Part shown: in pieces, positions 2,439 through 7,495 of the stretch
Layout: every line of letters starts with the position of its first letter
Numbering within the stretch: position 1 is the stretch's first letter
Source of the DNA: an uncultured Gammaproteobacteria bacterium
GTDB taxonomy: Bacteria; Pseudomonadota; Gammaproteobacteria; HK1
NCBI GenBank assembly: GCA_958295835.1
Contig: OY282378.1
Coordinates: forward strand, 3,621,694-3,685,693
Reading direction: 5' to 3'
Length of the DNA stretch: 64,000 nucleotides
Position numbers and translations under genes: made by a program
Notes under the pieces: model-generated
Seen by the model: the letters and a program-made list of their open reading frames with translations, nothing else
What the model was told of the DNA's origin: nothing
The model's database searches: none

Positions 2439-2950
2439 CTCATGGCCTGCAATGAGGCAGTGCCCGTGGCGGCTCGTTCCAGGTGACTTTCATTTCCGTC
2501 AACAGACGACTGCGGCATCTCGGGGCCTGAATCGTCGATTCCGAACCGGTTCCAGCCATCGAGAGCCCGGTTTCACTCAGTGCTTGCCGCTGCCTCTGAC
2601 GGCAGCCAAAAGGAGGAAGAGGAGATGAGCAAGAAGACACTGTGCGTTGGCTTGACCGTGGTCGCTGTCCTTGCAATCTCCGGATGTGGCGGCGGAAGTT
2701 CGACCGTCAAAAGGACGCTCACGTCCCGAGTCGGCGGCCTCTCGTTCAACATGAATGCAAGTTTCAGTGTGCCTGTGGGCCAGACGCGCGAGCATGAAGG
2801 ACACACTATTACGTGCCTACAAGCGTTGGGTGCCGCGTGCAGCGTGATGGTGAATGCCGACACGGACGTGGTCAGCTCGTCGGACGGCCGTATTACCGTG
2901 AAAGCACCTACCTTAGTCCTGACACCGACACCGACACCGACACCGACACC
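2439..2950 (+). repeat. Long direct repeat, copy 1 (5' end of lipoprotein 1)
   Basis: From CTCATGGCCTGC through the leader, signal sequence and first ~100 codons to the (ACACCG)n tract, this segment is nearly identical to 4314-4855. Differences seen are a few substitutions in the leader and small indels: copy 2 has an extra 9 nt (AAGGCAACC) before the ribosome site and an 18-nt in-frame duplication giving KTLCVG twice. Confidence 0.9.
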
Positions 2951-4211
2951 GACGCCGGAACCCGAGCCGACGCCGGAACCCGAGCCGACGCCGGAACCCG
3001 AGCCGACGCCGGAACCCGAGCCGACGCCGGAACCCGAGCCGACGCCGGAACCCGAGCCGGGGCCGGAGACGCTGAGTTCTGCGCTGGCTGTTGAAACGAT
3101 ACAGCCGGGCGCAGTGCTGGGGATCGAGAAGGCCATCGGCGCCGAACCAAAGGCCGGCAGCATCACGCAGTCTTCGAATACGGACGCTGACGGTATCACG
3201 ACCGACCAAGTGGAGGTGACCGCGGAGTACAGATACATCACACCCCGTTTTTCGGTGACAAACGGAGACGAATGGTCCATCGGCATGGATGAAGGAAATC
3301 CCATGGCGATACAGGGCTTCGACCAATCTTGGAAAGGTGCTCAGTTGATCAAGACTATCCCCGGGGGCACCTTGTACGTCGATGCCTACACGAACATCGA
3401 GGCACCGACGACGGAAAAGATTCCCGGCGAGACCCCCAAAAGAGTAAGTACAGGTGATCATATAAGCGGTCTCTTTGGTGGCATACTGTCCTCCGGAACT
3501 CTGAACGGCGAAGAGGGCGAATTTGAGTGTAGCGGTATTGGTTTTAGCCAGTGTTCTGTGGAAATCATCGGACCTTCCCTCCACGGCTTACCCCCCAGCA
3601 GCGGCACCGTTACCAGTGTCACAGGCACAGGGAGCCTCGTATTCACCCCAACACGTGACGTACCAGACACCGACTATCTGGCCGGTGGGGTCTGGCTGTT
3701 CGTTCCCGACACTGCGTCAAGCACCGACGACTACGTATTCGGTGCCTTTGCGGACGGCGGCGATCCTTTCGATCCAGGGAATATCATGGCTCTAACCGGC
3801 AACGCGACGTATGTGGGCGGTGCCATCGGGAAATATTCGCAAAAGGATGGCAGTTCGACCACCATCGGATCCTTCGAGGGCGACGTTAGCCTGACGGCCA
3901 GCTTTGGTGCTGCAGACAGCCTTGGTACGATCAGCGGTTCGATCACCGATTTCGAATTGGACGGTGAGGCGACCGCGGGCAGCTTGACCTTGGAAGAGAC
4001 CGCTATCGGCTCCGCCAACAGCGGCTTCTTCAAGGGTGCGGTGAGCGGCTCGGATGACTCCCGCACGTACGCTGGCAAGTGGGGCGGCCAGTTCTACGGC
4101 AACGGGGCGGCCAGTACCGACCATCCGGGATCGGTTGCCGGGACGTTCGGCGCAAAATCCACGGACGAGGCTGTGAACTACATCGGCTTTTTCGGTGCAT
4201 TGAAACAGTAA
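2625..4211 (+). CDS. TbpB-like surface lipoprotein 1 (putative Slam substrate)
   Basis: 528 residues, started at ATG 2625 behind AGGAGGAAGAGGAG. The signal peptide ends in lipobox ISGC (Cys ~20), so the protein should be acylated. A short N-terminal domain (~25-100, with two cysteines) is joined by a Pro-rich tether, (PT)n then six PEPEPT-like repeats (~101-145), to a ~380-residue domain. Its C-terminus carries [12 protein letters not shown] and [11 protein letters not shown], the hallmark of the TbpB/fHbp-type lipoprotein beta-barrel family, whose members are flipped to the cell surface by Slam proteins. A Slam gene lies 1.9 kb downstream and a paralogue in between. Ligand unknown; this family includes metal-, haem- and host-protein-binding lipoproteins, and nothing here shows which applies. 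Confidence 0.85.
2951..3058 (+). repeat. Six tandem 18-bp repeats coding for a Pro-Glu/Pro-Thr tether
   Basis: GACGCCGGAACCCGAGCC occurs six times head to tail, preceded by a short (ACACCG)n array from 2924. Translated it gives alternating PT and PEPEP, a stiff extended tether between the lipidated N-terminus and the barrel domain. Copy number is likely to vary by slippage. The paralogue keeps only the (ACACCG)n part. Confidence 0.95.
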
Positions 4212-4508
4212 CTCAAGTTTCGGGATTCAGAATGACGGAAAATCGCTTCATCACCTATATCACTCGAATTCGATCCGCATGGTGAACACATCCAACCGGA
4301 GGTTTCGTGCAAACTCATGGCCTGCAATGAGGCAGTGCCCGTGGCGGCTCGTTCCAGGTGACTTTCATTTCCGTCAACAGACGACTACGGCATCTCAGGG
4401 CCTGAATCGTCGATTCCGAACCGGGTCCAACCATCGAGAGCCCGGTTTCACTCAGTGCCTGCCGCTGCCTCTGACGGCAGCCAAGGCAACCAAAAGGAGG
4501 AAGGGGGG
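4212..4508. other. Spacer between the two lipoprotein genes
   Basis: The first ~100 bp are unique, with no clear terminator. From 4314 the sequence is the second copy of the duplicated leader. Any promoter in the duplicated leader would therefore drive both genes. Confidence 0.6.
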
Positions 4509-4855
4509 ATGAGCAAGAAGACACTGTGCGTTGGGAAGACACTGTGCGTTGGCTTGACCGTGGCCGCTGTCCTTGCAATCTCCGGATGTGGCGGCGGAAG
4601 TTCGACCGTCAAAAGGACGCTCACGTCCCGAGTCGGCGGCCTCTCGTTCAACATGAATGCAAGTTTCAGTGTGCCTGTGGGCCAGACGCGCGAGCATGAA
4701 GGACACACTATTACGTGCCTACAAGCGTTGGGTGCCGCGTGCAGCGTGATGGTGAATGCCGACACGGACGTGGTCAGCTCGTCGGACGGCCGTATTACCG
4801 TGAAAGCACCTACCTTAGTCCTGACACCGACACCGACACCGACACCGACACCGAC
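4314..4855 (+). repeat. Long direct repeat, copy 2 (5' end of lipoprotein 2)
   Basis: Second copy of the 2439-2950 segment. The match stops at the (ACACCG)n tract, after which the two genes diverge completely until the barrel domain. Confidence 0.9.
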
Positions 4856-6056: not shown

Positions 6057-6090
6057 CGCGAGGTCCAATCTCGCCGACCCCGAACGGGAG

Positions 6091-6122
6091 AAGGGCAGCC
6101 CTGCGGCTGCCCTTCTTTTTTT
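6091..6122 (+). terminator. Rho-independent terminator after lipoprotein 2
   Basis: AAGGGCAGCC-CTGC-GGCTGCCCTT is a perfect 10-bp stem with a 4-nt loop, followed by CTTTTTTT. It separates the lipoproteins from the Slam gene and would attenuate Slam relative to its substrates. Confidence 0.9.
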
Positions 6123-6145
6123 CGGTGCCGATGATCGTGACGACA

Positions 6146-7495
6146 ATGAAGTGGATCTGCACCCTCGCCGTCGCCGCTCTGCTCCATGCCCCGGCACTCG
6201 CCGCTTCCGATCGCTCCCACCTGTCCTCCGACCCCCGGGTCGTCGATGCCCGGGCGCTGGTTGAAAGCGGTCGTTTCTCCGAGGCGCTGACCGTCCTGCG
6301 ACCGCTCGCACCGGACCATCCGGACCGGACGGACGTCCTCTTCCTCCTCGGTCTGGCCGCCATCGAAGCCTCCCGGCAGGCCGACACCGGGGAAGCGGAA
6401 CGAACCGCCCTGCTCGACGAGGCCATCGCCGCGCTCCGCGCCATCCTGATCGACCGTCCGGGTCTCGTGCGCGTGCGCCTGGAGCTGGCGCGGGCGTTCT
6501 TTCTCAAGCGCGAGGACGACCTCTCGCATGAGCATTTCGAGCGCGTGCTGGCCGGCGGGCCGCCGCCGGCGATGGTTGCGAACATCCGCCGCTTCCTGGA
6601 AGAGATGCGGGCACGCCGACGCTGGAGCGGCTGGTTCGGCGCCACACTCGCTCCGGACAGCAACGTCAACGCGGCCTCGGACTCGGACGTCATCCATATC
6701 GGCGGCTTGCCGTTCCGCCGCGGCGCGGACGCGGGCGCCCGCTCGGGGGTAGGGGCCATCCTGTGGGGCGGTGGTGAATACCAGCATCCGCTCGGCCGGC
6801 GGCTGCGGCTGCGCGCGGGTGCGGACCTCGCCCGCCGGGAATACGCCGGAAAAGATTTCGACCAGACCTTTCTGTCCGGGCACGTCGGACCCCGCTGGCT
6901 GGTGGGCCGGGGCACCGAGGCGAGCCTGCTCGCCAGCGCCCGGCGCCGCTGGACCGCCGGCAAGCCGGAGAGCCACAGCCTCGGCGCCCGCTTCGAGAGC
7001 GAACACCGGTTCTCCCGGCGGCTGACGGCGAGCCTGCGGGCCGCCTGGCACCAGCACAGATACCGGCAAGACGAATCCCTGGACGGGCCACAGGCCACTC
7101 TCGCTCTGAGTACGGCCTGGCTCCTGACCTCGACCGTGCGAACCGATCTGACGATCGGTCATGAGCGCGAACGTCCGGAATCGGTGTTCCAGCGCAATGC
7201 CACCCGCTGGGCACGGATGGGCCTGTCGGTGGCGTTGCCGCTGGGTTTCTCCCTGCACGGCAGTACCGAATTGCGCCGGACCGACTTCAAGGGCGACTGG
7301 TCCCCGTTCACGTCCGCCGGCGCATCCCGGGCAGATCGGACCCGGATCCTGCGCGTCTCGATTTTCAACCGGGCCTTTACTCTGCGCGGATTCAGCCCGC
7401 AGCTCGTGCTGGTGAACGAAGCGCGCGAATCCAATGCACAGTTGCACGACTACAGACGCAATCGTGCCGAATTGCGATTCGTGCGGCAGTTCTAG
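6146..7495 (+). CDS. Slam-family outer-membrane lipoprotein translocator (TPR + DUF560 barrel)
   Basis: 449 residues from ATG 6146; an in-frame ATG at 6131 would add five residues and neither has a clear ribosome site. Residues 1-20 are a Sec signal peptide (MKWICTLAVAALL, cut after LAA). Residues ~30-155 are helical TPR-like repeats (ALVESGRFSEALTVLRPL, LLDEAIAALRAIL, LELARAFFL). From ~163 to the end, alternating strands form a DUF560-type barrel beginning GATLAPDSNVN and closing with the family-typical YRRNRAELRFVRQF ending in a terminal Phe. Slam proteins move TbpB-like lipoproteins across the outer membrane; two such proteins are encoded immediately upstream. A terminator at 6091 lies in front of the gene. 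Confidence 0.85.
   Translation: MKWICTLAVAALLHAPALAASDRSHLSSDPRVVDARALVESGRFSEALTVLRPLAPDHPDRTDVLFLLGLAAIEASRQADTGEAERTALLDEAIAALRAILIDRPGLVRVRLELARAFFLKREDDLSHEHFERVLAGGPPPAMVANIRRFLEEMRARRRWSGWFGATLAPDSNVNAASDSDVIHIGGLPFRRGADAGARSGVGAILWGGGEYQHPLGRRLRLRAGADLARREYAGKDFDQTFLSGHVGPRWLVGRGTEASLLASARRRWTAGKPESHSLGARFESEHRFSRRLTASLRAAWHQHRYRQDESLDGPQATLALSTAWLLTSTVRTDLTIGHERERPESVFQRNATRWARMGLSVALPLGFSLHGSTELRRTDFKGDWSPFTSAGASRADRTRILRVSIFNRAFTLRGFSPQLVLVNEARESNAQLHDYRRNRAELRFVRQF

Follow-up and report, generated by a model that had tools for sequence, protein, structure and literature searches.

A Slam-type secretion cassette with two mosaic lipoproteins, probably for surface display, in an uncultured gammaproteobacterium

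How could a bacterium diversify its surface receptors while keeping a single export signal? This question is raised by a locus in a stretch of 64,000 nucleotides (contig OY282378.1 of assembly GCA_958295835.1, positions 3,621,694 to 3,685,693; the whole stretch is called the window here) from an uncultured gammaproteobacterium, in which two lipoprotein genes, A and B, lie immediately upstream of a gene for a Slam protein, the outer-membrane protein of a type 11 secretion system (T11SS). The window genome (G000) is a single contig of 5.73 Mb. It was compared with three genomes of the same genus (G001, G003 and the draft genome G004, for which copy numbers are approximate) and with a family-level relative, likewise an uncultured gammaproteobacterium (G005, OY282433.1). 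The locus belongs to the known Slam/T11SS kind, and the sequence comparisons make it very probable that it is a mobile or duplicated cassette in which Slam would display A and B by way of their C-terminal barrels and in which the heads would be swapped by recombination. The parts of the locus are:

2421-2624, forward strand: conserved leader of A, with identities of 91% to its counterpart in B and 88% to the G005 relative
2625-4211, forward strand: lipoprotein A, 528 residues; small Cys-containing N domain after signal peptide and lipobox, tether of (PT)n and (PEPEPT)n at about 100-147, head at about 150-345, eight-strand barrel at about 348-528
4296-4508, forward strand: leader of B, paralogous to the leader of A
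4509-6056, forward strand: lipoprotein B, 515 residues; N-terminal 108 residues 99% identical to A, head at about 119-334, TbpB/fHbp-type barrel at 335-515
5511-6053, forward strand: barrel module of B, the point where G005 homology resumes exactly
6089-6122, forward strand: intrinsic-terminator-like hairpin between B and Slam, with a 12-bp perfect stem, a 4-nt loop and a T run
6146-7495, forward strand: Slam, the T11SS outer-membrane protein, 449 residues; signal peptide, TPR helices at 30-157, 14-strand barrel at 160-448, terminal Phe

An earlier interpretation made from the letters alone (the sequence-only reading) had named the 449-residue protein a DUF560 and TPR protein of the Slam type, and this identification is firmly upheld. 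The SlipAM profile (PF04575) matched it strongly, with 86.7 bits against a cut-off of 22 (E-value 2.6e-24) and with all 288 profile positions covered (1-288). N-terminal to this match, TPR_16 and TPR_19 scored above their cut-offs; TPR_Slam gave 24.1 bits, under its cut-off of 35.2. An AlphaFold2 model built on an alignment of nine relatives (confidence, pLDDT, 82.5) has TPR-type helices at residues 30-157 and 14 long strands at 160-448, mostly with pLDDT above 75, and the solved barrels closest to it include the 14-stranded porins OmpG and CymA as well as the TPR-barrels PelB and BcsC. The terminal Phe that had been noted is present (RFVRQF). Thus, 6146-7495 encodes a true Slam, whose translation could also begin at an in-frame ATG at 6128. 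A profile search found no other SlipAM gene in the window genome, and sequence comparison with solved structures gave no useful match for Slam or for the cargo.

The other two open reading frames (ORFs) are, like that of Slam, intact at the positions first noted, and the lipobox and the tethers described for both lipoproteins are present. The lipobox, LAISGC, was read directly from the protein sequences and places the cysteine at residue 21 in A and 27 in B; (PT)n repeats are found in the tethers of both, with PEPEPT repeats as well in A, and VAGTFGA is present in both C-terminal regions. Within the signal peptide of B, an 18-bp tandem duplication (4517-4552) encodes KTLCVG twice. Matches of A to TonB, PARP and other Pfam and NCBIfam models were dropped as Pro-rich low-complexity matches to the tether. 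In the AlphaFold2 model of A, eight strands were found at residues 392-527, mostly with pLDDT of 70-88, and the top Foldseek matches of this barrel were NHBA, TbpB, HpuA and fHbp. A structural aligner gave Z of about 14 to fHbp and NHBA and 13 to OmpX and Ail, so the eight-strand fold by itself is not specific for Slam cargo. A barrel is thereby predicted for A and, by 55% identity to the barrel of A, for B, whose barrel is 84% identical to that of the G005 cargo. Neither of the two findings that would have overturned the sequence-only reading, a missing barrel or a missing DUF560 match, was made. The single barrel in the model of A and the single barrel match in B do not correspond to the bilobed form of TbpB and LbpB.

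Slam cargo has been described by a lipobox, an eight-strand barrel and linkage to Slam (PMC5449769), and Slam1 is a demonstrated translocon that is helped by Skp (PMC9090332). By analogy, Sec would export A and B, the lipobox cysteine would be lipidated and the proteins would be delivered to the outer membrane. The Slam barrel and its periplasmic TPR domain would then recognise the C-terminal eight-strand barrels and pass A and B to the cell surface, where the Pro-rich linkers would keep them tethered. That the lipoproteins are instead periplasmic and Slam serves other cargo seems highly improbable: a barrel profile finds just A and B, and no further barrel cargo, in the window genome, and with the exception of G004 the relatives whose flanks could be used have a lipoprotein linked to Slam in the same order.

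The two lipoproteins are mosaics. Their shared 5´ block (2426-2956 in A, 4301-4858 in B) is 93% identical over 558 aligned nucleotides, 300 of them at 100%. Rfam has no match in 1200-8000, and the leader common to both genes therefore does not belong to a known RNA family. Between the heads, identity is 29% over an alignment of 147 columns with many gaps, its score of 94 standing against 55 for the best of 100 shuffles. The two different heads of the sequence-only reading thus need a finer description: they are strongly divergent and carry different accessory segments, but they are not unrelated, since remote homology (29-39% identity) links them to each other and to the head of the G005 cargo, and they may act as receptors. 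The gene pair therefore combines parts whose apparent ages lie far apart, as would be expected if the 5´ module had been converted or duplicated recently. It might also be argued that A and B are simple duplicates drifting point by point, without recombination of their heads, and the remote homology of the heads means that divergence alone could explain part of the pattern. We consider this doubtful, since 300 nucleotides are fully identical at one end whereas the barrels differ by 45% and the heads by about 70%, and since identity changes abruptly at the lipobox in G005 and G004. Parts of such unequal age within a single gene call for recombination or conversion, for the 5´ module at the very least.

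Borders that would fit such recombination are seen in G005. Its DNA matches the window at 2257-2693 with 88% identity and at 5511-7497 with 92%, through the Slam stop codon; the one cargo encoded between these stretches has a different head. The left stretch stops just past the lipobox, and the right one begins where the barrel does, with DTDYLAGG. A fast-changing head would be framed by two constant modules, one at the 5´ end (leader, signal peptide and tether) and one at the 3´ end (the barrel), and with such constant ends heads could be replaced by recombination without loss of export. In the window genome, the two flanks of the G005 cassette map to 3.69 and 1.92 Mb, apart from the cassette of the window itself, which means that the cassettes occupy positions that do not correspond. 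Besides this cassette, G005 encodes another Slam, which is intact and has cargo of its own. Upstream of a Slam locus in G005, L066:82-2667 encodes a lipoprotein that combines a subtilase domain with a C-terminus resembling those of outer-membrane proteins.

Comparison with the congener G003, which is 97% identical to the window on 1-1286 and 7751-8472, places the whole locus in an insertion:

1287-7750, no strand: insertion relative to G003, 6,464 bp in place of 67 bp, with its left junction in 1249-1286
1272-2126, forward strand: 5´-truncated duplicate of an RND efflux pump gene (ACR_tran) at the left edge of the insertion, with fuller copies elsewhere in the genome
2236-2265, forward strand: poly-C tract of 30 nt, the longest of five tracts of at least 17 nt in the genome
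7629-7694, forward strand: interspersed repeat of about 66 bp just inside the right edge, unclassified, with many copies in G000 and G003

Profile searches found neither SlipAM nor barrel cargo in G003 and G001. The self-contained cassette that had been proposed is therefore supported in two ways, by a 6.46-kb insertion relative to a Slam-less congener and by a like cassette elsewhere in G005. At the left junction (1249-1286) the left flank runs into the RND fragment, and this truncated duplicate favours a gain of the insertion in the window lineage over a loss in G003. Near the insertion, 9444-10835 encodes an ankyrin-repeat protein.

The hairpin between cargo and Slam is a recurrent part of these loci. 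A hairpin with a T run was found between the cargo stop codon and Slam in nine of the ten linked loci (the window and L066-L073; L056 is without it), with stem sequences that vary between loci. On the same scale, not one of 87 shuffled regions reached a score of 8. Those of L067, L070 and L073 were read from the intergenic sequences and the others were found by our own automatic scan. In the window, the T run ends 5 nt ahead of the first possible Slam start, which leaves little room for a promoter. We infer that Slam is expressed by read-through of the terminator, which would probably make it scarcer than its cargo. In L070, where several hundred bases more precede the Slam start, Slam may have a promoter of its own.

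A second regulatory feature might be the poly-C tract, located 359 bp before the start codon of A. Slippage in this tract could switch A and the downstream genes on and off, making the locus a phase-variable cassette; the tract has 30 C here against 8 C at the corresponding site in G005, and it is one of the five long tracts in the genome. We regard such a switch as unlikely, given the distance to the start codon, that a promoter scan, which yielded no convincing sigma-70 promoter, recognised none near the tract, that the G004 cargos lie on contigs other than those listed with such tracts, and that homopolymer lengths in assemblies are error-prone. The four other poly-C/G tracts of G000 (18-26 nt; C1 positions 1481693, 2227117, 4444871 and 4874623) are possible slippage sites as well.

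Several observations weigh against a working display cassette with exchangeable heads. The TbpB_B_D profile covers the C-terminal region of A and B at 16.1 and 15.3 bits, under its curated cut-off of 26. The TbpB-type C-termini of the sequence-only reading thus hold in their fold, from the model and the Foldseek matches of A and the likeness of B to A, and not at the level of the profile; this cut-off is a score threshold and not a defining trait, so A and B are filed by fold and linkage. The head of A, where the beta-rich handle of Slam cargo would be expected ahead of the barrel, has pLDDT below 50 in the model. In G005, the Slam copy of the matching cassette carries a stop codon and a frame change, and that copy must be dispensable there. 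The polarity of the insertion depends on a single empty congener, G003. A promoter and terminator scanner did not have the 6089 hairpin in its list, probably because this scanner pairs the A/T ends of the stem with the T run; our own search did detect the hairpin.

Cargo with conserved ends and changing heads is far more abundant in G004. This genome has two SlipAM genes and 21 barrel matches (about 20 cargos) over many contigs (cargo loci L062-L064 and L185-L196), and its main Slam (L058) is without adjacent cargo. Most of these cargos start with one of two nearly identical signal peptides. One group has DNA identities of 76-95%, which at several loci extend over about 0.8-0.9 kb of upstream sequence; the similarity ends 64-109 nt into the gene at most loci, L191 and L193 being similar further. 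Conserved ends combined with changing heads were seen at about 15 G004 loci, and this speaks for a widespread arrangement in the genus in which the 5´ module is constant and the heads vary. One or two hub Slams might display a large lipoprotein family, about 20 in G004, built from a recycled 5´ module for expression and lipidation, interchangeable heads and a barrel that Slam can read, so that recombination at fixed borders would swap the head and leave export untouched; we put this forward tentatively, at somewhat below an even chance.

Further loci of this family showed other arrangements. A short ORF, MATERFLHMRLSREDC... (starting with MATERFLHM), recurs together with its flanking DNA downstream of G004 cargos (L191:3393-3626 and L190:5184-5390); it had no Pfam match, and its product could be a small DNA-binding protein. 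A 760-residue ORF (L074:1319-3601) with the start of a cargo lipoprotein and the end of a Slam barrel represents a fusion, a deletion or an assembly error, and one short contig has two convergent Slam genes (L071:1837-4622). A second Slam lineage, about 30% identical (L059:9592-11634 and L060:525-2465), lies next to a cargo with two similar barrel-like halves, which is closer to the bilobed TbpB form.

What the heads bind may be connected to the habitat. Relatives of this Slam occur in metagenome bins, and the bin codes RHO and COS look like codes for sponges. One such bin, MPMX bin65, was obtained from the sponge Aplysina aerophoba (PMC5649159). The window organism thus probably lives with marine sponges, and the heads would most likely bind molecules of the sponge host or of neighbours. 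Another candidate function is nutrient piracy of the TbpB or hemophilin type, with heads that would catch carriers of iron, haem or metal on behalf of a TonB-dependent receptor. The barrel is common to TbpB, HpuA and the hemophilins, and carriers of metal or haem are the ligands of much of the Slam cargo characterised so far (PMC12282271), but a Pfam scan of the flanking ORFs (RND fragment, dioxygenase, GYD, ankyrin, MFS and M24) revealed no TonB-dependent receptor of the TbpA type, each protein has one barrel in place of the two lobes of TbpB, and the cargo has no useful sequence match to any solved receptor. Piracy of this type therefore appears rather improbable here.

The cassette with its proposed display function resembles known systems in several respects. 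With Neisseria Slam1 and Slam2 and their cargos TbpB, LbpB, fHbp, HpuA and NHBA it shares a translocator of TPR and 14-strand DUF560 barrel, lipobox cargo ending in an eight-strand barrel, and gene linkage (PMC5449769, PMC9090332). It differs from them by one barrel per cargo, by long Pro-rich tethers and by the lack of a detected linked TonB receptor, and also in that two cargos share a near-identical 5´ module and that the locus is part of an insertion in what is probably a sponge symbiont. Pro-Thr repeats and variable N-termini have been described for predicted cargo, as have links to mobile islands (PMC12282271), and the locus is similar to this T11SS cluster 1, including its Sphingomonas and Psychrobacter cargo, in having a variable N-terminal effector, a TbpBBD-type barrel, PT repeats and a mobile setting (PMC8406197, PMC12282271). 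The cluster 1 work catalogues cargo in the Slam neighbourhood and does not mention sponges, and word searches of it returned neither unlinked cargos with a recycled leader nor a hairpin between cargo and Slam. A third likeness, drawn from descriptions and not from sequences, is to NilB and NilC of Xenorhabdus, a T11SS with lipoprotein cargo in an animal symbiont, with a gained, host-associated locus (PMC8406197, PMC9100927); here, however, there are two paralogous mosaic cargos.

New relative to the known Slam systems are the recycling of the 5´ module, the insertion of the cassette, the hairpin between cargo and Slam and the expansion of unlinked cargo. Such systems have been described chiefly in mucosal pathogens and in a nematode symbiont, and our literature search turned up no paper joining DUF560 or T11SS with sponge symbionts; here such a system is present in uncultured, probably sponge-associated Proteobacteria. 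The conserved ends and the changing heads suggest which part of the cargo Slam needs and which part selection alters. The natural set of heads on a common barrel is a tool for mapping recognition by Slam, and it opens to testing the question of how a symbiont may diversify its surface receptors with one export signal kept.

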